The position numbers and the translations under genes were made by a program. 64,000 nt of DNA from the NCBI RefSeq assembly GCF_900114585.1, contig NZ_FOTL01000003.1, positions 1-64,000 on the forward strand, written 5' to 3'. Shown here piece after piece: positions 37,350-63,896 of this stretch (its first letter is position 1; each line of letters opens with the position of its first letter). The notes under the pieces were generated by a model. That model saw only the letters and a program-made list of their open reading frames with translations. It was not told the origin of the DNA and did not search any database. The stretch is from Methanobrevibacter olleyae (GTDB lineage: Archaea; Methanobacteriota; Methanobacteria; Methanobacteriales; Methanobacteriaceae).

Positions 37350-37733
37350 ATGCATGAATTATCTATGGCTCAAGGGATTTTAAATGCAGTTTTAGAAACT
37401 GCTGAAGCTAATGATGCAATTGAAGTAACTGAAATGATTGTTGAGATTGGAAGATTGGCTATGCTTAATCCCGAGCAACTAAAGTTTATGTTAGGTGTTT
37501 TATGCCAAGACACCATAGCAGAAAATTCTGATATTATTATTGAAAATATTGATGTTGAAGTTAAATGTCACAATTGTGACTTTGAAGGTGTAGCTAATGT
37601 TGATAGCAGTGATCATTATGCTCCTATGATTTTATGTCCAAAATGTGAAAGTCATAGAGTTGAAGTTCTTAATGGTAAAGATGTAACTGTTAGAAATATT
37701 AGTATTGAAAGAGAAGATGATGGAGAAAATTAA
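37350..37733 (+). CDS. hypA: Hydrogenase nickel-insertion protein HypA
   Basis: HypA delivers nickel to [NiFe]-hydrogenase precursors together with HypB. The 127-aa protein starts MHELSMAQGILNAVLETA, with the canonical His2/Glu3 nickel ligands. It has the zinc-binding pairs CHNC and CPKC in the C-terminal half, and a short acidic tail. HypB follows 133 bp downstream in the same direction. A second, divergent HypA is encoded at 54386-54748. Confidence 0.95.
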   Translation: MHELSMAQGILNAVLETAEANDAIEVTEMIVEIGRLAMLNPEQLKFMLGVLCQDTIAENSDIIIENIDVEVKCHNCDFEGVANVDSSDHYAPMILCPKCESHRVEVLNGKDVTVRNISIEREDDGEN

Positions 37734-37880
37734 CAAAAATTAAGATATATTTTTCTATTAAAAATATTAAAATTACTTTTTATAATTTTCATAGTTGTCA
37801 TATAAACTATTAAAAATATTGTTTAAATTTTTAAAATTATTAAACTTATTATAAAATTATATATTATGAAGGTGAACTAT

Positions 37881-38558
37881 ATGCATAAAGTTGCTGATGT
37901 TGAAGTAGCAAAGAACATTATGGATGCTAATAAAAAATTAGCACATAAAAATTTACATACTTTAGAAGATAATAATATCTTTTGTGTTGACTTTGTAGGA
38001 GCTATAGGTTCTGGTAAGACTTCCCTTATTGAAGATATTATTGATGCTGTTGATGAGAGGATTGGTGTTATTGCAGGAGATGTAATTAGTAAATTTGATG
38101 CTGGAAGAATAGAATCACATAATGTTCCTGTAGTTGGATTAAACACTGGTAAGGAGTGTCACTTAGATGCACATTTGGTGGGTCATGGTTTAGGTGATTT
38201 ACCACTTGAAGATATTGATTACTTATTTATTGAAAATGTAGGAAACTTAATATGTCCTGTTGACTTTGAATTAGGTTCTCATATGAGAATTGTTGTAGTG
38301 TCTGTTAGTGAAGGTGATGATACTGTAGAAAAACACCCACTTATATTCCAAAACTCTGATTTAGTAATAATTAATAAAATTGATTTAGCTGATGCAGTTG
38401 GTGCTAATGTAGGTAAGATGGTAGATGATGCAAAAAGTCTCAATCCCGATGTAAAAGTTATTACTACTAGTTTAAAAGAAGATAAAGGATTAGATGAAGT
38501 GATTGAAGCTATTGAAGCTTGTAAAGCACATCAAGCAGAGCATCACCATCATCATTAA
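37881..38558 (+). CDS. hypB: Hydrogenase maturation GTPase HypB
   Basis: HypB is the GTPase partner of HypA in nickel insertion. The 225-aa protein has the P-loop FVGAIGSGKTSLIEDI, the switch/metal-binding block LNTGKECHLDAHLVGHGL, the NKID motif in VIINKIDLADAVG and a histidine-rich C-terminus (HQAEHHHHH) that may store nickel. I chose the ATG at 37881, since GGTGA lies before it, rather than the ATG at 37866. The usual bacterial N-terminal CxxCGC motif is absent, as in other archaeal HypB. Confidence 0.93.
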   Translation: MHKVADVEVAKNIMDANKKLAHKNLHTLEDNNIFCVDFVGAIGSGKTSLIEDIIDAVDERIGVIAGDVISKFDAGRIESHNVPVVGLNTGKECHLDAHLVGHGLGDLPLEDIDYLFIENVGNLICPVDFELGSHMRIVVVSVSEGDDTVEKHPLIFQNSDLVIINKIDLADAVGANVGKMVDDAKSLNPDVKVITTSLKEDKGLDEVIEAIEACKAHQAEHHHHH

Positions 38559-47440: not shown

Positions 47441-47530
47441 AGAGGGTATTTTATTCTTTGATTAGCCATCTTCTAAAAAGAAGTTTTAGAGGGTATTTTA
47501 TTCTTTGATTAATCATCTTCTAATAGGAAA
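47441..47530. repeat. Direct duplication of the 3' end of the ATPase gene
   Basis: AGAGGGTATTTTATTCTTTGATTA occurs at 47441 and 47488 (47-bp period), each followed by an (A/G)(C/T)CATCTTCTAA segment. The inner copy includes the stop codon and last codons of the ATPase gene (minus strand). The outer copy is a non-coding duplicate. Its CTTCTAAAAAGAAG dyad at 47470-47483 could form a hairpin. Confidence 0.85.
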
Positions 47531-48816
47531 TCGATTATATTAACAAATTTTATCCCTTTCCATTCCATCTTAACATTTTTATCTAATGTTAAGACTATTT
47601 TTTCATAATTGTCCTTAATTAATTCTAAGGATTCGCATTTTTCTTTAAGGATTTCCTTATCATTAATGGTTTTACAGATTTGATAATATTTACGTGTTTC
47701 AGGGGTTCTAACAACAAAGCTTATTTCTTTATTATTATATTTCCCAACTCTTATTTTATAATTTCTATGTAACAAGTTCAAAAATACAATATTTTCTAAT
47801 ATATTATTTTTGATATCTTCGCTAAATCCCATTATTGAATTATTAATTCCTGTATCTCCAACATAATACTTAGGTAATGTTTTTAATTCTTTATCTTTAG
47901 CAATATCATACCTACGTACTGAATAAAAAAGATGGGATTCTTCTAAGATTTTTAAATAGTCTAAAACTGTTGTTGGAGTAGTTTTTTTACAATCTTTTTT
48001 TAGGTACTTACATAAATTTTTTGATGATGTAAGATTACCTAAATTGAGTAAGGTGTATTTAATGATTCTTTCAAGTAATATAACATTTTTAATAGAATTT
48101 TTTTTAACGATATCCTGTAAAAATATAGTATTATAAACTCCAAAAACTAAATTCTTTAAAATATTATTCTTATTATCATACTCAAACAATATAGGTAATG
48201 ATCCGTATTTCACATATTCTTTAAACTCTTTAGAATAATCTTTATTCGAACTGACTTTAAATGCATTGTTTTTATCTAAGACTTGGAGTAATATTTCTTC
48301 TTTTTCTTTATTTGTAATTTTATTTAAGTTAGTTTTATTAAATTCATATTTTAACTCTAAAAATTCTCTAAATGATAAAGGCAATACTTTTATTTCATTG
48401 TATTCTAATTCAAAAAAGTTTTTTAATCTCTTAAAGTTAATACCTATAAAATATAAGTCTATGATAATATTATTATTTTCATTGATTTTTGACAATAGCT
48501 CAGGTAATATAAATTTCCAGTTGTGCAAATCTTGAATTTCATCAAAGAAGATATAATTATTCTTATTAGTTTTTATTTTTTTATTAATTAAGTTAGGTAG
48601 TTCGGAATCTTCTAAATTATTTTTTAATTTTAATAAATCGCAATCGATATTACATTCTATATAGATTATATTATTGTTTCTATCAGACTCTAATTCTTTT
48701 ACAAATTCTTTTACAATACTTGTTTTTCCAGATTGTCTCATCCCACTAATTAACTTAATTTTATTATTATCTTTATATTTCCTTAAATCATTTATATAAA
48801 CTTCTCTATTTAACAC
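47509..48816 (-). CDS. AAA+ ATPase with DUF4143 domain
   Basis: The 435-aa protein has Walker A GMRQSGKTSIVKEF, Walker B YIFFDEIQDLHNW, then the PLSFREFLELKYEF block. A C-terminal DUF4143-type half follows, with a PD-(D/E)xK-like ending (ENIVFLNLLHR, GKYNNKEISFVV). Such proteins are numerous in methanogens, and their role is unknown; links to defence or toxin-antitoxin systems have been proposed. The GTG start is preceded by AGGTGAT. It lies next to mrtA in the same orientation, separated by 178 bp. Codon use is more AT-rich than in mrt, which suggests different origin or low expression. Confidence 0.8.
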   Translation of the reverse strand: MLNREVYINDLRKYKDNNKIKLISGMRQSGKTSIVKEFVKELESDRNNNIIYIECNIDCDLLKLKNNLEDSELPNLINKKIKTNKNNYIFFDEIQDLHNWKFILPELLSKINENNNIIIDLYFIGINFKRLKNFFELEYNEIKVLPLSFREFLELKYEFNKTNLNKITNKEKEEILLQVLDKNNAFKVSSNKDYSKEFKEYVKYGSLPILFEYDNKNNILKNLVFGVYNTIFLQDIVKKNSIKNVILLERIIKYTLLNLGNLTSSKNLCKYLKKDCKKTTPTTVLDYLKILEESHLFYSVRRYDIAKDKELKTLPKYYVGDTGINNSIMGFSEDIKNNILENIVFLNLLHRNYKIRVGKYNNKEISFVVRTPETRKYYQICKTINDKEILKEKCESLELIKDNYEKIVLTLDKNVKMEWKGIKFVNIIDFLLEDD

Positions 48817-48994: not shown

Positions 48995-50671
48995 CTATTT
49001 TGAGAATGCCGGCAGAATGATACTTCTTTCACCATCTGCTTCAAATTCTCTTAGTGCACCTTTAGCAATACATTTTCTAGGATGTAGAAAGTCGAAGGAT
49101 AAATTCTTATCTGCAAATGCAATTTTAATTAATGGATTTACACAGAAAGCATCTCCCCTTGCAGCATGAGGTGCTTGAGCAATTCCAGCATATTCTGGTT
49201 GGTGTCCTACATTCATTGCATAGTTAGGATAGTTAGGCCCTCTTAATTCATGAATTAATCCTTCATCACTTCTAATAGATAATGAATTAGCTGCACCACA
49301 TTGGTCTTGTAAATCGTAACCATAGAATCCTAATCTGCTGTGAGATTCTTTATGTTCAATCATACTGAGATACCAACCATTTACTCCTGCATTAGAGTTT
49401 CCTGTTGCAAATGCTACAGAACATCCTGCAGCTGCGGAAATAACAGATGCTCTTTGAGAACCACCGAAATGGTCTTCAAGTAATGTTGGGATTTCGTACT
49501 GTTCTAAACCATAAATTGTAACTTCAGTAGCAATATCCTTTACATTATCAAAGTTAGCTTCTGCCTGACACATTCCATAATTTTTCTCTACATAATCTTT
49601 TCCATAGTAAATAAAATCATCTAATATATCATCAGTATATGTTGCACTTGCATATTGAGTAAATCCTACACCACCAGACATGTATGAACCTAGCCATACT
49701 TGGTCGTAAAAGGTTGCTGCCCCGCCAATTACTTCTAATGTAATTTTAGCAGGGTCATCACTAATTCTAGATGTTTGAATCATATCTGCAAAGATTCCAA
49801 ATGGAACTCCCCCTGGTTCATTTGCTCCTCTTGCACGTCTTGCAGGTAAAATTGCAGCCATACCAATTACATCTGCATGTTTAGCAGCATATGAAAAGTC
49901 AGCAATTGCCGCTTCTCCTGCACATAAACTGTATGCAGTAATGAAACTCATACCAATTTGCATAGCAGACCATCTAGATACAGTACCTCCATCACAAGCT
50001 CTAACAACTAATGTAGGCACTCTACTAACTTGGTAAGTTTTATTACCTATATATTCTTTAAGCATTTCTGCTTGTTCTTCTGGAAATTCTTTGTTGATAT
50101 CGATTAATACTCTTTTATCAAGTTCATCTGCTAATTCATCATTTCCAGTGAAGATTTTTGCATAACAGTCAGATGCAAGACCTGGGTGTACTTCTACCAT
50201 ATGTTCTTGAACTACAGCCCCTCCAGGAAGTGCATGGTTAATAGTTTCCATATATTCATTAATTGTTTCAGGTGTCACTTCAACACCTAATCTTTCTTGT
50301 AGCACAGAATGTGCAGTGTCCATTCCTACAATTACAGTTCTTTTAATATCATCAACTAATTGTTGGATTGCTGCGTTATTACAAAAGTGTAAGTCATCAC
50401 CTTCAACATAGTCTTCAGTACCAGATATTTTATAACTCATTAATTGTCTTTGTCCTAAAGGTACACCAATATCTGGGTTATAAAAAGGTAAATTATCTCT
50501 TTTTTTAGCTAATTCATTTGCAGCATCGAAAAATTCTCTTTTACGTGGAGATTGTTTCCATCCATCGAAACAGTAAAAACTTGTTTGTTGATCTTCTTGA
50601 TCTTCACCTTTAAATTTTTGAGTTAATGCCTCTAGAAAACGTTTATTTTCTAATTTTTCTCCTTTTGTCAT
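48995..50671 (-). CDS. mrtA: Methyl-coenzyme M reductase II subunit alpha
   Basis: The alpha subunit of MCR forms methane from methyl-CoM and CoB at nickel F430. The 558-aa protein has [35 protein letters not shown] (holding the methylated arginine of characterised MCRs), the signature [20 protein letters not shown], and [17 protein letters not shown], which contains the thioglycine, didehydroaspartate and methylcysteine positions. Its start overlaps the mrtG stop (TAATG) with AGGTGATG upstream. I call it mrt rather than mcr because the operon order is B-D-G-A with no C gene. Phylogeny would be decisive. Confidence 0.9.
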
Positions 50672-51468
50672 TAAGCATCACCTAATCTCTTTTTCAAATC
50701 ATCTTTAAATACATTTAATCCAAAACCTCCTTCAGTACGAGAGGTATGAATATTTTCTACAACGTCTACAAGTTCTTTATCGGTTCTTAAACCAATATTA
50801 TCTGCTCTGTAAATCGTAGTAATTTCATTAAGGTAATCTTCAGGAAGAGGTTCCCCTAGATCTACACTTTCATCAAGGAGACGACCTACTTGATCTTTTA
50901 TATAAACGATATGGCCAGTTTCTTCATCATAAACATATCTTTGTAATCCATCAAACATTAAGCCATTTTCATCTAGTCTTAATGAGTGTCCATGTACTGT
51001 TGCACCTCTCATACCAGATCTTGCAGGGTCAAATAAATCAGTTTCTACTAATTCTTTAGATATTTTTTCTAAGTCAGACTCCCTTATTTCAATCACTTGT
51101 CTTCCAGATAGTGTTCCAGTATCCACTCCCCTATATCTCCACATATACATTCTTGCTCTGTCATATGGCTGGGAAGGAGCATTATACATAGAGTCTGCAA
51201 ATTGAATATATCTTACACGAATCCCTTCTTTAGCACCATGAATTGGTTCGACTAAATCTCTTATAGGGTCTTCATTTAAATCCATTTCATCTAATGGAGG
51301 GTGTACTTTTTTATAATCTTGCCCTGGAGTTCTATGGCCTAAAATTCTTACAAGTCCTTCATCGGAAATTTCTCTTATATTCTTTAATTGATGATTGGGG
51401 TTCATGTGATTTCTTCTATTTTCAGCAATTTTAGTATCTCCTGGAGCAAATTGAGCTTTATATGTCAT
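50671..51468 (-). CDS. mrtG: Methyl-coenzyme M reductase II subunit gamma
   Basis: The 265-aa protein begins [20 protein letters not shown] and includes [38 protein letters not shown] and [20 protein letters not shown], all gamma-subunit blocks that line the active-site channel. The length is normal. It overlaps mrtA by one base and begins 10 bases after the mrtD stop, so the three are tightly coupled. GGTGAAA precedes the ATG. Confidence 0.93.
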
Positions 51469-51478
51469 ATTTTCACCT

Positions 51479-51997
51479 TTAAATCATATTTATTGTTTCA
51501 GAACTTCGAGCACGTGAATCAACCATACCGATATATCTCTCATCTATTGAATCTTCAAAATTTCTTCCATATTTTAAATAATCACTTACTGTAGTTTGAG
51601 TTTTGGTAAAAATACCAATCATTAAAATATATTTGCAGGGCAAAATTTCATCAAGTATTATTTCGATGGATTCCATAATCTCATTTAGTAATTTAACATC
51701 TATTGTTAAAATTATCTCACCAATAAGCAGTCTTAAATCAATATTCTGACCTTTTACATTGATGCTTTTTCTGTATTGGTGGTTTACAGGTGTTCCTCTC
51801 GCGGGACCATAATAAACAGTTTTTGGTAATGAAGGACCATGCACTATTCCTCTCACGATTCCATCAAGCTCAAAGATTTTATTTAATACTTTTTCAGATG
51901 TTTCTGGCTTTAAAAATCTGTTGGGAACTATTTTTATATCGATGATTTTGCAGACTTCATCATTAGCATTGATTTTATTTTCTTTTTCAGTGCTCAT
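51479..51997 (-). CDS. mrtD: Methyl-coenzyme M reductase operon protein D
   Basis: McrD/MrtD is not part of the mature enzyme and is thought to help assemble or deliver MCR. The 172-aa protein has IVPNRFLKPETSEKVLNKIF, the cysteine-free region IVRGIVHGPSLPKTVYYGPARGTPV and DLRLLIGEIILTIDV. I chose the ATG at 51997 (MSTEKENKIN), because GGTGAAA sits before it; a start 13 codons upstream would overlap mrtB. It lies ten bases after the mrtB stop. Confidence 0.9.
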   Translation of the reverse strand: MSTEKENKINANDEVCKIIDIKIVPNRFLKPETSEKVLNKIFELDGIVRGIVHGPSLPKTVYYGPARGTPVNHQYRKSINVKGQNIDLRLLIGEIILTIDVKLLNEIMESIEIILDEILPCKYILMIGIFTKTQTTVSDYLKYGRNFEDSIDERYIGMVDSRARSSETINMI

Positions 51998-52007
51998 TAT
52001 TTCACCT

Positions 52008-53342
52008 TTAAATTTTATCTTTAATTTCTCCTGCACCTTCTGCTACAAACTTAATAGGTTCTCTTAATGTATCAATGGTACTATATACTGTACCAATTAA
52101 TGCAGAGGTTCTTTCTACTGAAAACATTTGTGTTCCTGCATCTAGACACATTGCTACAGCTGCACAAGGTATTGCATAACCTTTAGCATGTCTTGTTACT
52201 ACGTGGTTTCCGTGGAAAGTACCTGGTCCACCTCCTCCATAGATTGAGTGAGAGAAGAAACTGAATCCTACACCTACCCCCTCTACTCTACCGAAATCTA
52301 CTCCAGGTAGTCCAGTTTCATATTCAAGAATGTCATTATAATAAAGTACAGTGGATGCTACTGCTTGAGCAGCTCTTGCAGCACCACAATTTACAATATT
52401 TGCAGCTAATAATCCTGCAGCAGCATAAGCATTCCATAGTGCCCAATCTACAGGTTCATACATATTGTATCCGGAATTCATTTTTTTTAAAACTCTAATA
52501 ACTCCATCTTCAAGTGCCAATCCTACGAGAGTTTCAATAACAGTACCTACACTTCCTTTTCCATTTTCTTTAACTAATTCATATACTAAATTATTAGCAT
52601 TTAAACCTTGGAAAGCCAGTCCCAATAAATGGCTACGCTCATAAGCTCCAGTTGCATCTCCAGTTTCAAACATAGCAGTTTGTTCCATAATAGAGGACAA
52701 TGCAGCAGCGTTTAATGTATTCTTATTTGTAATAGCAACTACATGATTTGCCATAACATTTCTAAGACCATAGCCTAATCCTTCAAAAAGTACTGGAGGT
52801 CCTAAAATCGCACTGATGTTTGCACCACTTAAATCAAGTGTTTGAGGATAAGCTCCCATTACTGCGGTTTTGACTGTTGATGCATCAAAGATATTAACAT
52901 CAAATGTATCAATAATAGACTGAGTTACTGCAGCTCCAGTAACTAATGAAGAAACAGTATAATCCCCAGCCATTTTGATTCTTTCATTAGGTACTTGAAC
53001 TAAGAGTTGATTGCCCTTATTAATTAAAGAAACAGATATATCATCATCATCATCACTAACTCTTACTATTTTCCTAATTTTCTCACCAATTATTTCAGCA
53101 TTTTCTGTAATTGGTAAATCAAGTTCACGTCCTGGGATAAATCTACCTTTTCCTCCTAATGCTCCATTTTTAAGCCCTTTTTCAATTCCACTTAAATTTA
53201 CTGCAACAGATCTTTTAATATTATATATAATATTTTCAATTGCAGGATTTCTCATAGGGCTTATAGCTTCTAATGGAACATCAGATTCTAATAATTTACC
53301 ATTAGGATCATATAAATCTATTTTGTCATCATATATTGGCAT
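52008..53342 (-). CDS. mrtB: Methyl-coenzyme M reductase II subunit beta
   Basis: The 444-aa beta subunit starts [20 protein letters not shown] and contains [41 protein letters not shown] and the active-site face [25 protein letters not shown] chose the ATG at 53342 because AAAGGTGGG is correctly spaced before it. It heads the mrtBDGA operon. A GTAATA-N16-TATTAC dyad with an internal TATA-like sequence lies 286 bp upstream (53628-53655). Confidence 0.93.
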
Positions 53343-53627
53343 TTTCCCACCTTTCAATTCTATAAAAAAATAAATTATAGAGAAAAATTTTAATTAAATA
53401 TTGAGATATTTTAGATGGTTTTATTAAAAAATATTTAAATAATCTTAATTTTAATTAGTTCTAATTAATTTTTACCAGTATTAATTAATTTTTATTAGTT
53501 AGAATCATTCATATCAATCATTTTAATTTATTTATAATTAATTCTGCATTGTAAAAATTTTCTATTAAACAATATTTTCCCTATTTTTGATTATTTTTCA
53601 CAAAAAATAATCATTTTTTTATATTAA

Positions 53628-53655
53628 GTAATACTTATATAAACTTTTTTATTAC
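53628..53655 (-). promoter_or_regulatory. GTAATA-N16-TATTAC dyad upstream of mrtB
   Basis: Both 6-bp half-sites are exact inverted repeats. Read on the minus strand, the spacer contains AGTTTATATAAG, a good TATA box preceded by an A-rich BRE-like stretch, pointed toward mrtB. A protein bound to the half-sites would straddle TBP. The immediate sequence AAGTAATACTT is itself an 11-bp palindrome. Confidence 0.55.
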
Positions 53656-53962
53656 AATATTTTTTTTTATTCCTATTCATTTCTATTATTTTAGGATTTT
53701 AGGGATTAATTATAATTTTTTTACCATAATTCCAATTTTTTTTAATTTTTTAATTAAAATTAAGATTATTTAAATATTTTTTAATTCTTATGCATTTATT
53801 TTATTATCTTTAATTCATTGTATTTTTATTTATTTTCATTATTTTCTTTATATTTTTATTTATAATTTAAAAATTAAGCTAAATGTTGAATATTTTTTGA
53901 TTTTAATTAGTATTTATTCTTATTTTATTGTTTGTTTTATTTTTCAGTGATATTTTAATTTA

Positions 53963-54385: not shown

Positions 54386-54748
54386 TCATTTTTCTATAGT
54401 TATATTACCAATGTTTAAATCGTATCCTTTTAATACATTAACTCTATGGCTACCACATTTTGGACATAAGACCATAGGGATTATTTCTTTGTTTATGTTA
54501 TCTATTAGTCCTATATAATTACAGTTGTAACATTTAATTTTAGCATCAGCTTCATTAACAATTAGCTCTGCATTTTCTGCTAATGTATCTTTTGATAAAA
54601 CACTAAAAATGTATTTTAATTTATCAGTTGTTATCCAGTTTAATTTTCCAATTTCAACATTAATTTCTGTTACTTTATTTGCATCATATTCTTCTGCAGT
54701 TTCTAATGCAACATTTAGAATACTTTGTACTACTGTTGAGCTATGCAT
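54386..54748 (-). CDS. hypA2: Divergent HypA paralogue
   Basis: The 120-aa protein has the HypA fold: helical start VVQSILNVALETAEEYDANK, strand/zinc region with CYNC and CPKC, and the ending VNVLKGYDLNIGNITIEK. The canonical nickel-binding N-terminus MHE is changed to MHS, so Glu3 is lost while His2 remains. It lies between the divergent mrt and flp genes, far from hypB. It may serve a special nickel enzyme, or may have lost nickel transfer. The start has GAGGTT upstream. Confidence 0.8.
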   Translation of the reverse strand: MHSSTVVQSILNVALETAEEYDANKVTEINVEIGKLNWITTDKLKYIFSVLSKDTLAENAELIVNEADAKIKCYNCNYIGLIDNINKEIIPMVLCPKCGSHRVNVLKGYDLNIGNITIEK

Positions 54749-54919
54749 ATTATAACCTCATTAATATCTTAATTGAGTTTAGAGATTAAATATAATTTTA
54801 TTAAAATTAACCATGTGGAATTGTAGCTGACTATCACAATTAAAATTTATATTTAAACTCTATTGAACTCTATTTTCTATCACAATATACTTTTTTATCC
54901 AGGAAAGCATTTTGCTAAT

Positions 54920-54947
54920 TTGTAATTAGTTGGCATTCTAATTACAA
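54920..54947 (-). other. Hairpin in the presumed hypA2 leader
   Basis: TTGTAATTAG and CTAATTACAA form a perfect 10-bp stem around an 8-nt loop. On the minus strand, AGCAAAATGCT (54906-54916, itself self-complementary at its ends) follows. Two copies of ATTGTGATAG also occur in this leader (54876 and 54831 regions). It is a candidate structured leader element. Confidence 0.4.
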
Positions 54948-54988
54948 GAGGGTGATTATTAGTTCTAATAATCAATTATCTATTAATA

Positions 54989-55016
54989 GTAATAATTATA
55001 TAAATCTTTTTATTAC
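54989..55016 (-). promoter_or_regulatory. GTAATA-N16-TATTAC dyad upstream of hypA2
   Basis: The half-sites are exact and extend to TAGTAATAA/TTATTACTA (9 bp each). The minus-strand spacer contains AGATTTATATAAT, a TATA box toward hypA2, whose start lies 241 bp away. The arrangement matches that upstream of mrtB in spacing, TATA position and orientation. Confidence 0.55.
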
Positions 55017-55310
55017 TAATATTTTTTTTAATTTAATCTATTCCTCCTATTTATATCAATAACCTAATAATTTAATTTATTTTATTATATGATTGTTTAT
55101 TTTTGCTTATTTTTTAATAATAGTCAATTTTAATGATTTTATTTTTTTATCTTAATTTAAAAATTTAATTCAATGGGATTGTTTTCATTGTTTATTTAAT
55201 AAAATTACTTAATTTTCTATAAAATTAGTTTATATTAATTTTTATAGTTATTGAATGTTTATTTTTCCTTATTATTTTGATTGAATCATTATACATTATT
55301 AAAAATTTTA

Positions 55311-55822: not shown

Positions 55823-56411
55823 TATATTTTATTTCTGATTAAATAGTTCTTTTTCTCTAAAAAAATGGCTAAAAATTTAAATTTTCTTTAAATTATAAAA
55901 TATATTGTTTATTTCATTAAATAATTGATTTTTGGATGTTATTTTAGATTATATTTTTCATCATAAAAATTCTTTTCTAATAGAATTATTACTTTTTTAA
56001 AATAATTGCTATTAGATTAGTTATATTAATTTTAACGTATTTTTATCCTTTTTAGACTAATTTAGAACATGATAATTTATTATTTTTTAACAATACTTCT
56101 TTTTATTCACTTTAATTTTACTAAATTTTTCAAAATATTTATATAAGTATTACTAATTATATAAATAGTGTGATTATTAAATTTAAATCACATTAACTTG
56201 TTTATTAAAATTTAAGTATTACTTTATAATATTCTTTTTAAATGGTTTTTCCGTTTTTTATATGAGTATTATAGTGATTATACTTATTTATTTTAATAAT
56301 AAAGTAATAAGAGAATAATTTCTTAACTTAGGTAATTTCCTAGAATTAAATCCTTTTAGATCAATCAGAGGATTTAATTTCTTTAAGAATAAATTTTGGA
56401 GATAGAATTTT

Positions 56412-57491
56412 ATGTTAGACATAAAACATACAATATGTCCTTCATGCTCTGTAGGATGTGGGTTAAACATTGTTTCAAAAGATGGAGTGGTGGTAGGAAC
56501 CTATCCTTATAAAAGGCATCCTATTAATGAAGGGAAAAATTGTTTAAATGGTCGAAATTCCATATTGCAATTTGAAGATTCAATCAAAAAACCTTCATTT
56601 GTAAAAAACAACGAACTTGAAGAATCGGATAATGAATCTATAATTAAGGCAATTAAAGATCAACTAGATTCTATTGATGCTAATGAATTAGCTATCATTT
56701 GTTCTGGAAATAATACAAATGAGGAAATTGATAGAATAATTAAATTTGCTGAAGAATATGGAAGTGAAAAAATAGGATTTTATGGATATAATTTCCCTAA
56801 CTTTTTTGGTGATGTAGCTAGCTATGATGATGTATATAATGCAAGTACTATACTAGCTATTGGGGATATTTATAGGGATAATCCTTTATTAGGTAGAAGA
56901 ATAGTATTATCTAAAGAAAATGGAGCAAAACTCATTAATTTAGATGATGTAGAAAAATCTATAACTTCATTAAATGCAGATGAATTTATTCAATTTAAAG
57001 ATGGAGAATTTGCAGATAAAATTGATGCTTTAAAAGATCAATTAGATGAAAATTCTGTCATTATTGTAAATAAAATTGATAGTAAAGAGGATTTTGCTTT
57101 AATTGAAGGATTATCTAAAGGGGCTAATGCAAAGTTATTACCTGTATTTAATGCTCCTAATAGTAAAGGTGCTATGAATAGATTAAATTCATTAGACAAT
57201 GATGAAATTAAGGACCTTATTGATAACTCTAAAGTACTTATTGTTGTTAAAGATAATTTATTAGATTATTTATCTGAAGATGACATTAAAGGAAAAAGTT
57301 TTATTGTAAATATTTCTAATGAGAAAAATCGTTTTGCTGAACTTTCAGATATAGTTCTTCCAGGTAAATTCTGGGTAGAGAAAAGTGGAACTTTCACTAA
57401 TTGTGAAGGTTTAGAACAAAACTTTAGTATATCTGCAGAATGTGAAAATGATAATTTAAGTGAAATAGAAATGTTCGATGAACTTGCTTAA
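56412..57491 (+). CDS. flpC: FlpC-like short formate-dehydrogenase-alpha-like protein
   Basis: The 359-aa protein carries the [4Fe-4S] motif of molybdopterin oxidoreductases at C9, C12, C16 and C44 (CPSCSVGCG ... EGKNC). It ends with the family block SDIVLPGKFWVEKSGTFTNC. It is about half the length of FdhA: the middle domain is shortened, the C-terminal molybdopterin-binding domain is missing, and I see no active-site Cys/Sec region. It therefore probably does not bind a full molybdopterin catalytic site. GGAGAT precedes the ATG. It heads flpC-flpB-flpD. The name follows my memory of the Methanothermobacter flp operon. Confidence 0.65.
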   Translation: MLDIKHTICPSCSVGCGLNIVSKDGVVVGTYPYKRHPINEGKNCLNGRNSILQFEDSIKKPSFVKNNELEESDNESIIKAIKDQLDSIDANELAIICSGNNTNEEIDRIIKFAEEYGSEKIGFYGYNFPNFFGDVASYDDVYNASTILAIGDIYRDNPLLGRRIVLSKENGAKLINLDDVEKSITSLNADEFIQFKDGEFADKIDALKDQLDENSVIIVNKIDSKEDFALIEGLSKGANAKLLPVFNAPNSKGAMNRLNSLDNDEIKDLIDNSKVLIVVKDNLLDYLSEDDIKGKSFIVNISNEKNRFAELSDIVLPGKFWVEKSGTFTNCEGLEQNFSISAECENDNLSEIEMFDELA

Positions 57492-57504: not shown

Positions 57505-58659
57505 ATGAGTGAAAAATTTATTCTTGCTAAAAGTAAAGAAAATGAAATAACTGATAGTGGAGCATGTGGAGGAGCAGTAAGTTCTATTTTTCAATATTTG
57601 TTAGCTAATAATCTCGTTGATGGTGTATTAACTCTTAATAAGGGTGACGATGTATACGATGGTATTCCAAGACTTTTAACTAATCCAGCAGAAGTTATTG
57701 AAACCTGCGGTTCCCTACATTGTGCACCTACAATGGTTGGAGATTTAATTTCTGATTATTTAGCAGATGAAAAAATAGCAGTAGCAGTAAAACCTTGTGA
57801 TGCAAAAGCTATTAATGAATTAGTGAAAAGACACAGAATAGATGCTGATAAAATTTTTACCATTGGCTTAAATTGTGGAGGCACAGTAATCCCTGAAGTA
57901 GCACAAGAGATGATAGAAAAATTTTATAATGTTGATCCATCTAAAGTTGTTAAAGAAGAAATCGACAAAGGTAAATTTATCATCGAACTTGATGATGGTG
58001 AAGAGATTGGAATCAAAATCGATGATCTGGAAGAAGAAGGCTATGGACGTCGTGCAAACTGTCAAAGATGTGAGCTCAAAGTACCTCGTAACGCAGACAT
58101 TGCCTGTGGTAACTGGGGTTCAGAGCCTGGTTGGACATTTGTTGAAATCAACAGTGACAAAGGTAGAGAAATAATTGAAGGAGCTGTAAATGAAGGATTT
58201 ATTGAAACAAAAGAACCTTCAGAAAAAGCTTTAGCAATTAGAGATAAAATTGAAAACATTATGATTAATATGGGTAAAAAATCTCAAGCTAAACAATTAG
58301 ATGCTGATGCTTTAACCCTTGAAGAATGGGAAAATCAATGGAACAAATGTATTAAATGTTTTGCTTGTCATGATGTTTGTCCTATCTGTTGGTGTAATGA
58401 ATGTGAACTTGAAAAGCCATACTTTGAAGATGATCAACAAGCACCTCCTGACCCATTAGGATTCCACGGTGTTAGATTGTCTCATATGAGTCCAAGCTGT
58501 GTAAACTGTGGTCAATGTGATGATGTTTGTCCAATGGAAATTCCAGTATCTAAATTATTCCATAAATTACAAAAGAAATACGAAGACCAAACTGGATATG
58601 TTGCTGGTATTGGTGATGAAAAACCTCCACTATACAGTCCACAAAAAGAAAACTTTTAA
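57505..58659 (+). CDS. flpB: FdhB/FlpB-like F420-dependent electron-transfer subunit
   Basis: The 384-aa protein is of the FdhB/FrhB family, which binds FAD and Fe-S clusters and exchanges electrons with coenzyme F420. It has SGACGGAVSSIFQYLL at the N-terminus, KPCDAKAINELVKRH, the RRANCQRCELKVPRNADIACG cluster region, and two C-terminal ferredoxin-like motifs (CIKCFACHDVCPIC and CVNCGQCDDVCPM). I chose the ATG at 57505 because GGTGAT precedes it. It begins 13 bases after flpC, and flpD follows 15 bases after its stop. Confidence 0.8.
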   Translation: MSEKFILAKSKENEITDSGACGGAVSSIFQYLLANNLVDGVLTLNKGDDVYDGIPRLLTNPAEVIETCGSLHCAPTMVGDLISDYLADEKIAVAVKPCDAKAINELVKRHRIDADKIFTIGLNCGGTVIPEVAQEMIEKFYNVDPSKVVKEEIDKGKFIIELDDGEEIGIKIDDLEEEGYGRRANCQRCELKVPRNADIACGNWGSEPGWTFVEINSDKGREIIEGAVNEGFIETKEPSEKALAIRDKIENIMINMGKKSQAKQLDADALTLEEWENQWNKCIKCFACHDVCPICWCNECELEKPYFEDDQQAPPDPLGFHGVRLSHMSPSCVNCGQCDDVCPMEIPVSKLFHKLQKKYEDQTGYVAGIGDEKPPLYSPQKENF

Positions 58660-58674
58660 TAGGAGTTGAATTTT

Positions 58675-59076
58675 ATGGCAGAAGATGTTAAAATAGTAGG
58701 TTTTTGTTGTAATTGGTGTTGTTATGGTGGTGCAGATACAGCAGGTACTGCACGTATGCAATATCCCCCTAATGTAAGAATTATAAGAGTTATGTGTTCT
58801 GGAAGAATCAATCCTTCTATGGTTTTTAAAGCATTTAAAGAAGGTGCTGATGGAGTATTTGTAGGTGGTTGTCATATTGGTGATTGTCACTATGATGCTG
58901 GAAATTACAAATGGAATAGAAGGGCATTGATGACTAAGGATATCATAGAAGAATTTGGAATTGATAAAGATAGATTCAGATTTGAATGGATTTCTGCTTC
59001 TGAAGGAGAAAAATTCCAAAGAACTATGAAAGAGTTTTATAATACTATTAGTAAACTCGGACCAAGAAATAAATAA
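58675..59076 (+). CDS. flpD: FlpD/MvhD-type iron-sulfur subunit
   Basis: The 133-aa protein matches the MvhD family (Pfam FlpD): [38 protein letters not shown] and the cluster block [12 protein letters not shown]. In hydrogenotrophic methanogens MvhD is the [2Fe-2S] subunit that passes electrons from hydrogenase or formate dehydrogenase to heterodisulfide reductase HdrA. Its cotranscription with FlpC and FlpB suggests an alternative electron input module to Hdr. The ATG at 58675 follows GGAG; a TTG three codons upstream is less likely. Confidence 0.85.
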
Positions 59077-60842: not shown

Positions 60843-61751
60843 TTAGCTATTTTCTTTTTCTTTTTTTATTTTTTTAGCCTTGTAGAAATCCTTTTTAAGT
60901 ATTTGGTCAAAAGCTAAAGTTTCTTCATTAATACATTTTCTTATTTCTTCAGAGTCATAGGCTCTGTCTGCTAAGAAATAATGAGGTTGATATTTCTTTG
61001 TTTGCCTAATAGCTGCTAAAGCAAATTGAGTATCGTGTTTAGGGCCTTTAGAAACTCCGTAATTGAGAATCATTCGTGTGTCTACATTGATAGCAATATG
61101 ATTTTTTGTATATCCTTTTCGCTTTTTAGCTCTTATTTGGGCGTAATATTTGTCAGCATAGTCACTTGTATGTCCAGTACCATCTAAAGCAATCAATTCG
61201 CTCTTTTTAGGATAATCTAATAATATGAAACCATTTAAATATCTTATTTGGGTGTCAGAGAGTCTTTCAAAGAATTTTTTTGGGATTGTTGTGTAATGTG
61301 GCAAGTTGGAAAGTCTTAAAAATTTAAGGAATGTAAAATTTTATAGGCTTAAATTTATTTTTAATTATTTTATTTATAAATAAATAATAAATTTTTATTT
61401 TTAAGCCTAAACTTTTTTACAACCTCAAAATTTAAGTATTTTGGTGCAGGGCTCCAAATAATCGATTATACCACGATAAGTAGCTTTTAAATATATTTTC
61501 GTAGCTAAGATAGTGAATAATGGAGGTTGTGTGTACAAATGGTTGCTGTAATCAGATGAATATTTACTAAAAACAATAATAGCACAGTTATATACTTTTT
61601 CAATGAAATTTAGGAACATGTTGTCATTTATACTGCTTATAAATTGTTTTTCATTTTGGGTTTTTCCATTGATCTTTAAGCCAAAATCAGAAAGAGTTAA
61701 ATGTCTTGAATTCAAATAATAATATGAGGAATGAATTTTTTTACTAGTCAT
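60843..61751 (-). pseudogene. Disrupted DDE transposase (copy 2)
   Basis: The N-terminal half starts at an ATG at 61751 (MTSKKIHSS...) and runs to KILKF, where a stop in the inserted DNA ends it. The rest resumes as LRLSNLPHYTTIPKKFFERL in the same frame beyond the insertion. It includes the first catalytic aspartate (ELIALDGTGHTSD) and the second (FLADRAYD), and stops matching copy 1 after INEETLAFDQI. About 220 bp encoding the catalytic glutamate block are deleted, so the frame runs through the IS end into flanking DNA. The element is inactive for two independent reasons. Confidence 0.85.
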
Positions 61752-62031
61752 ATTAATATTTATTCCCCTTTTTATTATAAATAACTTTTTATTTCTTTTT
61801 TTAAGTATTGAAAGGTATAATTTCAAGTGTAATAAATTTTAAGTGTTTTATGAGATTTATATTTGAAATGAAGGATTGTTAAATTTTTTTGCACAAAAGT
61901 AATTTTTCAACTGTAAAAATTTAACGATTATATGATCATTTTTTGTTAAATAAAGGCATTATAATCAGTATTTTATCAAAATAAGTGATTAAAATCGATA
62001 ATTTATTATTTTTAATATGGTTTCTACAAGG
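60878..62031 (-). mobile_element. Degenerate insertion sequence (copy 2)
   Basis: The element is bounded by inverted ends CCTTGTAGAAATC (60878-60890) and GGTTTCTACAAGG (62019-62031), which match in 12 of 13 positions. It is the same family as the 1-351 remnant but in inverted orientation. It contains an internal deletion and the MITE-like insertion at 61329. I could not find a clean target-site duplication. Confidence 0.8.
61319..61436. mobile_element. 98-bp MITE-like insertion inside the transposase gene
   Basis: The insert at 61329-61426 is flanked by identical 10-bp direct repeats AAAATTTAAG (61319-61328 and 61427-61436). It has imperfect terminal inverted repeats of about 25 bp sharing TAGGCTTAAA/TTTAAGCCTA, a long AT-rich palindromic centre and no ORF. 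Removing insert plus one repeat (108 bp) restores the transposase frame exactly; both repeats encode LKF on the minus strand. Confidence 0.8.
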
Positions 62032-62113: not shown

Positions 62114-63896
62114 GAGTGTCCGCCAAAAATGGATTTTTTAAAAATTCTTAAAAATTTAAATCATTTAAATCAATTATTTTCCTAACATTCTAATGAAAAA
62201 TTTATTATTTTTCTAAAATTTCGGTGTTCACACCCACAAAAAATTTTTAACCTATAAAAAATTCTTTAAATCAAAAATAAAGCAAGAATATTATAGTAAA
62301 CTTTATATATTATTTTACACATAAATATAAATATCAATAAGTTAATATTTTGGTGCTATTTATGGTAAAAAGAATTCCTGACAAAGAACAAATAAAATTA
62401 GGTATCAAAAGCTTAGATTTCAACATTCCAAACAACCACATCTCCCGATTTCTTGTAGAATTCATTGATGAGTATTTTCCACTTTTGCAAATCAAAGAAA
62501 AGAAAAAGAAAAAAGGACGTGACAGCTTTCCAGTAAAAGAAATGCTAAAAATACTTATTTATGCTAAAATCGAACATATCGACAGCATGAGATTCCTAGC
62601 AGACATGGTAAAATTCCATGACATATATAAATTTGTAGGTTGTGGAATTCAACCTTCAGAACGATCATTACAACGTTATAGACAAGAATACGGAAAATAC
62701 TTCAACGAAATCCTAAAAATGACCCTAAAAAAAGCTGTTGATGCTGGTTTCACTGAATTTAATAACGTTTCAATCGACGGAACTATCAAAAAAGCATATA
62801 ATTCAAAAAACAAAATAATCACAGAAAAAGAAACCGAAATATTAACCCGTTACTTTGAAGGAGACAGTGTTAGTCAAGAAGAGCTTGATAAACTCCACAA
62901 ACCAGCTCGCGAGATTCTTGAAAATGAAAAAATAAACATGCAAGAAAAATTGTACTTATTAGATGAGATTAAAACTCAATTCACACTCTCTGGTCAAAAA
63001 TCTGTACCAATAACTGATATAAAATCCCGTTGGATTAAAAGTAAGAAAGGAAACTTACAAATAAGCTATAATATCCAATCAGCAGTCGATTACGATACAA
63101 AAATGATTTGTGCAATAAACGTTGTACAAGCTCCAACAGACCATTATCAATTGCCAAAAATAGTGGATAAAGCAATAAACAATACAAATGTGTTGCCAAG
63201 ATTTGTATTGGCAGATACAATCTATTTAAACGAGATAAGCTTATCATATCTTGCAGATAAGCATATTGATGGAGTGATACCTGATAGAAAGCAATCTAAT
63301 GAAAAAATAGGTAGATTAAACAAGAATCCATATCACAAGGATTATTTCAAATATTTGTCAGAAATTGATGCATTTGAATGTCCTGAAGGCCAGATAATGT
63401 ATTTTTTCAACAAATATGTTGAAAAAACTGAAGATCCGGAGAAACAAGATAAAATTAAACGATTATACTGTAATTACAGTGCTTGTAAAGCTTGTAATTG
63501 TCGGGAAAACTGTCTTTCATCAACTCAAACTCACAAAACTATTACTGAATATGGAGGAAGTTTGAAGAAAGCCATGTGGGAGAAAATGGAATCTGATGAG
63601 TATAAGGAAGTTTATAGCAGAAGATCTTCCGTTGAAGGACCTTTTGGTATTTTAAAGGAACAATTCAATATTGAAAGTGAAGTGGTGATTGGAAAAAGAA
63701 AAACAGAAGAAAGGCTATTGTTAGATGCAGTGGCTTATAATTTAATACGTTTATATAACTTAAAACAAGAAAAAGGAAATGATAAAGAAGATATAGTTGA
63801 TTTCTGTGAAAAAATTTCAGTTCAAGAGAAATTAGAACTCAGAGCAACTATATTTTAGGGGGTGCTGTCTTAAATTTTTATTTTTGGCGGACACCC
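62114..63896 (+). mobile_element. Intact IS1182-type insertion sequence
   Basis: The 1783-bp element has terminal inverted repeats GAGTGTCCGCCAAAAAT (62114-62130) and, on the other end, GGGTGTCCGCCAAAAAT in reverse (63880-63896), with one mismatch. TAAT flanks both sides (62110-62113 and 63897-63900), a possible 4-bp target duplication. It encodes one full-length transposase and looks recently mobile. It landed next to the older dead element, with about 80 bp between. Confidence 0.85.
62362..63858 (+). CDS. IS1182-family transposase
   Basis: The 498-aa DDE transposase has a basic N-terminus, a helical DNA-binding region (PVKEMLKILIYAKIEHIDSM, PSERSLQRYRQEYGKYF), the first aspartate in NVSIDGTIKKAYNS and the second in FVLADTIYLNE. 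A cysteine-rich zinc-like insert (CNYSACKACNCRENC) follows, and the catalytic glutamate is in SVEGPFGILKEQF. All catalytic blocks are present and the frame is unbroken. The ATG at 62362 follows TTGGTG; a TTG at 62350 overlaps that site. Base composition is less AT-rich than the native genes. Confidence 0.88.
   Translation: MVKRIPDKEQIKLGIKSLDFNIPNNHISRFLVEFIDEYFPLLQIKEKKKKKGRDSFPVKEMLKILIYAKIEHIDSMRFLADMVKFHDIYKFVGCGIQPSERSLQRYRQEYGKYFNEILKMTLKKAVDAGFTEFNNVSIDGTIKKAYNSKNKIITEKETEILTRYFEGDSVSQEELDKLHKPAREILENEKINMQEKLYLLDEIKTQFTLSGQKSVPITDIKSRWIKSKKGNLQISYNIQSAVDYDTKMICAINVVQAPTDHYQLPKIVDKAINNTNVLPRFVLADTIYLNEISLSYLADKHIDGVIPDRKQSNEKIGRLNKNPYHKDYFKYLSEIDAFECPEGQIMYFFNKYVEKTEDPEKQDKIKRLYCNYSACKACNCRENCLSSTQTHKTITEYGGSLKKAMWEKMESDEYKEVYSRRSSVEGPFGILKEQFNIESEVVIGKRKTEERLLLDAVAYNLIRLYNLKQEKGNDKEDIVDFCEKISVQEKLELRATIF

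Follow-up and report, generated by a model that had tools for sequence, protein, structure and literature searches.

The hypA2 gene of Methanobrevibacter olleyae lies in the window (the whole 64,000-nucleotide stretch of DNA that was analysed), which has a GC content of 27.0%; the GC content of M. olleyae YLM1 is 26.9% (PMC4824261). The hypA2 ORF has an ATG start and encodes 120 amino acids with the N-terminus MHSSTVVQ. The mrtBDGA genes are located downstream of it on the same strand and flpECD upstream and divergent (4/4 genomes). The gene order mrtBDGA-hypA2-flpECD is identical in four species, with flanking gaps of 1.0–1.5 kb toward mrt and 1.3–1.7 kb toward flp in the four genomes. Within the 2.12-Mb genome, hypA1 alone encodes another full-length HypA, which starts with MHELS. 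The initial annotation had placed hypA2 away from hypB and near mrt and flp, and this arrangement holds, with hypB adjoining hypA1. The genes are listed below.

37350–37733, forward strand: hypA1, canonical MHE HypA, the parent paralogue of hypA2
37866–38558, forward strand: hypB, directly 3' of hypA1
47509–48816, reverse strand: AAA_14/DUF4143 ATPase, in the same present/absent block as hypA2
48995–50671, reverse strand: mrtA
50671–51468, reverse strand: mrtG
51479–51997, reverse strand: mrtD
52008–53342, reverse strand: mrtB, methyl-CoM reductase II beta
54386–54748, reverse strand: hypA2, HypA paralogue with an MHS start; His2 and Zn-Cys4 retained, Glu3 and the His98-equivalent gone
56412–57491, forward strand: flpE, molybdopterin oxidoreductase-like
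57505–58659, forward strand: flpC, FrhB/FdhB-like
58666–59076, forward strand: flpD

Transposase-like genes are also seen downstream of mch, near the mrt-flp block, at 60843–61826 and 62350–63858. A second flpECD set is present in the same genome (contig C39, 1015–3718); its flpC is 77% identical and it has no mrt/flp-type promoter.

The HypA2 product scores 90.2 bits against the Pfam HypA profile PF01155 (cut-off 28.9) and 94 against TIGR00100 (cut-off 88.1). Against NF001976, the methanogen HypA equivalog with a cut-off of 146 bits, HypA2 scores 111.8 and HypA1 186.6. Two intact CxxC pairs (CYNC and CPKC) are present, and the four zinc cysteines are invariant across the four HypA2 orthologues, bearing out the earlier description of an MHS start combined with both zinc motifs. 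An AlphaFold model of HypA2, obtained from five sequences, has a pLDDT of 63 and matches the fold of HypA alone, the model being too weak for site geometry. A scan of viral contigs returned no relatives of HypA2. By descent, fold and profile, HypA2 is a HypA paralogue, and it is a diverged HypA-derived protein and not a canonical HypA.

The N-terminal MHE motif has been described as invariant across the HypA family (PMC5557546). All 70 of the other HypA proteins compared, including that of T. kodakarensis, start with MHE, while HypA2 retains Met1-His2 without the complete motif. Glu3 is absent from all four HypA2 proteins and replaced by serine in three (MHS) and lysine in one (MHK). Whether Ser3 is fixed had been raised as a question; it is not, whereas the loss of Glu3 is fixed, as is the loss of the His98-equivalent, and no orthologue was found to keep MHE. 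The firm nickel ligands of HypA are His2 and the N-terminal amine (PMC7055735, PMC5557546). In the T. kodakarensis HypAB complex nickel is bound by His98, the N-terminal amine and His2 (PMC7055735). The Glu3 side chain does not coordinate nickel in that complex and acts as a ligand solely in the six-coordinate model for H. pylori (PMC7055735, PMC5557546). The initial annotation had assigned nickel binding to His2 and Glu3; the literature agrees for His2 and only partly, through the H. pylori model, for the Glu3 side chain.

The H89 column of the alignment corresponds to T. kodakarensis His98, part of the archaeal nickel site of the HypAB complex. This position is Glu or Lys in all four HypA2 proteins and His in 65 of the 69 other HypA proteins. 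Four of the 69 thus have no His98-equivalent, and the HYxP His is missing from canonical HypA proteins of some genera (L117, L118, L119 and L125). HypA2 agrees with canonical HypA at 19 of the 37 columns conserved in at least 90% of canonical sequences and partly agrees at 5; the other 13 (E3, M6, A7, V14, N21, N40, P41, E42, I67, D85, H89, Y90 and V114) are gone in every one of the four proteins, none of which differs at Met1, His2 or a zinc cysteine. In H. pylori, residue 40 is Asp40, a proposed nickel ligand. No significant enrichment of the lost columns at ligand positions was found (3/5 versus 10/32 of the other conserved columns, p 0.32), nor significant clustering of these columns (p 0.18), and preferential loss at nickel-site positions was set aside as statistically unsupported. 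Considering this p value, the canonical proteins without a His98-equivalent and the restriction of Glu3 ligation to the H. pylori model, "remodelled" is a fair description of the HypA2 nickel site.

The four HypA2 proteins form one clade (support 100/100) nested among the HypA1 proteins of the genus, at an attachment point that is unsure owing to long branches, and the stem of the clade measures 1.41 substitutions per site. The orthologues are 60–76% identical and intact in four species. Pairwise dN/dS of hypA2 is 0.11–0.18, like that of hypA1, with synonymous sites near saturation. The long stem together with these dN/dS values points to a fast-changed duplicate that is now held in place and is not decaying, and the initial annotation's alternative of a decaying duplicate in one strain only does not describe hypA2. 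On phylogenetic grounds, hypA2 is shown to derive from a single duplication of hypA1 inside the genus, followed by fast divergence and, judging from the substitution pattern, purifying selection now. Separately, the hypA1-hypB pairs of G017, G022, G021 and G033 (L038, L046, L054 and L056) are of another type, with HypA1 69–75% identical to that of G000, G018 and G030, despite 86–98% identity of flpC and mch in the same genomes. Replacement of hypAB in this lineage is possible.

The survey for hypA2 covered 139 genomes from the family and 152 from the phylum. Of the latter, 4 encode a HypA2-type protein, and all four are rumen methanogens from one Methanobrevibacter genus (M. olleyae type): G000, G017 (M. 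olleyae SIG14), G030 (RUG11428) and G034. The local mrtA type (97% identical) is confined to exactly these genomes; hypA2 is present in 4/4 genomes with the local mrt type and 0/15 others of the genus (Fisher p 2.6e-4, a value that ignores kinship). Four further genomes (G018, G021, G022 and G028) carry flp without mrt and without hypA2, and G022, where flpE adjoins metE, shows no trace of hypA2, of mrt or of the ATPase at this place. Based on the restriction to local-mrt genomes, the flp-only genomes and the absence in G022, hypA2 is gained and lost as a block with mrt and the DUF4143 ATPase. As to whether hypA2 is always linked to mrt and flp, it lies between the two in all four genomes, but a tie to flp was rejected, because the flp-only genomes lack hypA2 and its promoter matches that of mrtB and not that of flpE. 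In mrt-bearing species of other genera, including those with mrt beside flp, a second HypA was not found in the 152-genome survey, so Mrt as such does not require HypA2.

Two other genomes of the survey are mentioned here for their unusual loci. G033, a genome that is 73% complete, has an mrt of another type (87%) without hypA2, and an mtd-like gene adjoins this mrt on contig C66 (L057); lateral acquisition and contamination are candidate readings of it. The "second HypA" of G020 (L039, contig C101, 5766–6110) was rejected as a HypA2. It is a divergent, bacterial-looking protein starting MHELGILVHM, on a foreign-looking contig with plasmid-like genes, and is probably contamination.

The intergenic regions around hypA2 contain the following putative regulatory elements, including the dyad promoter of its own that the initial annotation had attributed to hypA2.

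53588–53613, no strand assigned: mrtB operator dyad TGATTATTTTTCACAAAAAATAATCA, also present upstream of mrtB in other Methanobrevibacter genera (L070, L071)
53627–53656, reverse strand: mrtB promoter, same TATA-dyad element as at hypA2, 285 nt upstream of mrtB
54919–54947, reverse strand: conserved inverted repeat of 10 bp around the loop AATGCCAA, in the presumed hypA2 5' leader; compensating pair changes in G030 and G034
54953–54974, no strand assigned: hypA2 operator dyad TGATTATTAGTTCTAATAATCA of the mrtB-operator type, just downstream of the hypA2 TATA box
54988–55017, reverse strand: hypA2 promoter, TATA box within a GTAATA/TATTAC inverted repeat AGTAATAAAAAGATTTATATAATTATTACT, 240 nt upstream of the ATG; conserved in four species
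56138–56192, forward strand: flpE promoter, same TATA/TATTACT core with a different dyad, TGTGATT...AATCACA

The presumed hypA2 and mrtB promoters both carry AGTAATAAAAANNTTTATATAANTATTACT, followed about 14 nt later by the dyad TGATTATT...AATAATCA. Genome-wide (2.1 Mb), the 30-mer has five matches with at most 3 mismatches and the dyad occurs at three sites, and both are found together only at mrtB and hypA2; reversed-pattern controls for the 30-mer and the dyad gave zero. The third exact operator-like dyad (C12:7650) is not accompanied by the TATA element. All four species have this arrangement of TATA element and dyad; the TATA element differs at no more than 2 positions, and single species show small changes in the dyad arms. 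In each of them hypA2 thus has the TATA-dyad and TGATTATT...AATAATCA operator found at mrtB, by which membership of the mrt regulon was judged. Two genomes of the Methanobrevibacter_A type that lack hypA2 (L070, L071) also have the mrtB-type dyad ahead of mrtB; it is therefore an mrt operator which hypA2 came to acquire.

Upstream of mrtB in other Methanobrevibacter genera (L070 and L071, and L073 and L068), an operator of this type is conserved as TGATTATTTT...AAAATAATCA or in a variant form, and is a candidate site for an H2-responsive regulator. The flpE promoters (56138–56192 and L058–L061) have the TATA/TATTACT core in common, and their different dyad, GTGATT...AATCAC, is conserved in several species, with the variant CGTTATT...AATAACG in G018. 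The inverted repeat in the hypA2 leader may form an RNA hairpin, since compensating changes are seen in its stem pairs from species to species; an Rfam search of the leader gave no match. A second short conserved leader element, GATAGYCAGCTACAAT, lies at 54820–54835, upstream of hypA2 in all four species.

Taking the linkage, the shared promoter and the residue changes together, we tentatively propose that HypA2 is a condition-specific nickel metallochaperone paralogue that is dedicated to the mrt regulon and feeds the existing hydrogenases. HypA2 probably handles nickel specifically while the mrt enzyme is being made. As the comparisons show, a copy of hypA1 came to sit by mrtBDGA with a promoter and operator of the mrtB type, and the surroundings of its nickel site changed with His2, Met1 and the zinc module kept. 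HypA2 would be made alongside methyl-CoM reductase II, during hydrogen-rich, fast growth. In Methanothermobacter, Mrt responds to H2 and is preferentially synthesised early in exponential growth (PMC3087415), and given the shared promoter hypA2 should respond likewise. The N-terminal amine and His2 would still carry Ni(II), although its affinity and release would differ, and HypA2 would either work with HypB or pass nickel on in the absence of the tight site that HypB normally induces, raising nickel delivery at peak demand. The existing Frh, Mvh, Eha and Ehb hydrogenases would be the most likely recipients, the main alternative being F430 synthesis for Mrt. Genomes with hypA2 have the same hydrogenases as genomes that lack it, and no extra [NiFe]-hydrogenase was found in the HypA2-bearing genomes. 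There is thus no obvious new hydrogenase client, and an extra hydrogenase was rejected as the client of HypA2.

A changed client is a serious rival to this reading, although unlikely in our judgement. HypA2 would in that case supply nickel to F430 (through the CfbB chelatase) or aid MrtD in Mrt maturation, and would not serve the hydrogenases. This agrees with the altered nickel site, with the absence of an extra hydrogenase and with the strict linkage and shared promoter, which tie hypA2 to mrt and not to hypB or any hydrogenase. However, Mrt functions in many species without HypA2, McrABG, which is also present in the hypA2 species, needs F430 too, and we know of no HypA that acts in F430 synthesis. 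It is quite doubtful that HypA2 is the first protein of the HypA type to have moved from hydrogenases to F430 or to the maturation of methyl-CoM reductase II, the loss of Glu3 and the His98-equivalent having tuned its nickel site. These same losses, in a protein whose fold and zinc module remain, could also be expected of a decoy which no longer delivers nickel and competes for HypB or apo-hydrogenase, lowering hydrogenase maturation when mrt is on. Such a role would be at odds with the invariance, in all four proteins, of Met1 and His2, both firmly established as nickel ligands, and more hydrogenase, not less, would be expected in fast growth at high H2; we consider it an unlikely function, though a serious rival.

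An ordinary duplicate that does the same job as a back-up and has accumulated neutral N-terminal changes would be compatible with the scores above the Pfam and TIGR00100 cut-offs, and with the canonical proteins that also miss the HYxP His. This explanation is improbable, as Glu3 is present in 70/70 other HypA and 0/4 HypA2 proteins, 13 of 37 conserved columns are changed, the NF001976 score is under the equivalog cut-off and the promoter class is distinct. The long stem branch and the absence of hypA2 from most of the genus could also be read as signs of a degenerating duplicate carried along with mrt, but this is highly improbable: the intact state and 60–76% identity in four species and the conserved promoter, operator and leader oppose it, and the decay reading was rejected on dN/dS. 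To our knowledge, the way in which hydrogenases and F430 share nickel in methanogens has not been established. A HypA paralogue whose promoter, gain and loss all connect it with methyl-CoM reductase II gives this question a concrete entry point that can be tested, and the HypA2 proteins are natural variants of the "invariant" MHE motif with which the role of Glu3 can be addressed.

The nine-gene region described in M. olleyae YLM1 has the same nine genes, with hypA2 called "a hydrogenase maturation protein"; the presence of hypA2 is therefore already known, and its nickel-site changes, origin and shared promoter are not described in that work (PMC4824261). Sequence and fold searches point to T. 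kodakarensis HypA in the HypAB-Ni complex (5aun) as the nearest solved structure; this HypA uses the His98 that is absent from HypA2. The HypB partner also differs, since that in 5aun is of the ATP-using archaeal type, whereas the hypB product in the window matches the classical TIGR00073 family. HybF-type paralogues keep MHE and are located in hydrogenase operons. HypA2, in contrast, falls by its promoter in the mrt regulon and has no hydrogenase neighbour, the likeness being that of a second HypA in the genome. E. coli HybF and other hydrogenase-specific paralogues are second HypA proteins thought to confer client specificity (PMC12134894, in which the ATP-using archaeal type of HypB is also mentioned). 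Methanobacteriales HypA (NF001976/TIGR00100, represented here by HypA1) resembles HypA2 in fold, Met1-His2, the two CxxC zinc motifs, length and descent, whereas HypA2 lacks Glu3, N40-P41-E42 and D-H-Y, falls under the NF001976 cut-off, is unpaired with hypB and has an mrt-type promoter.
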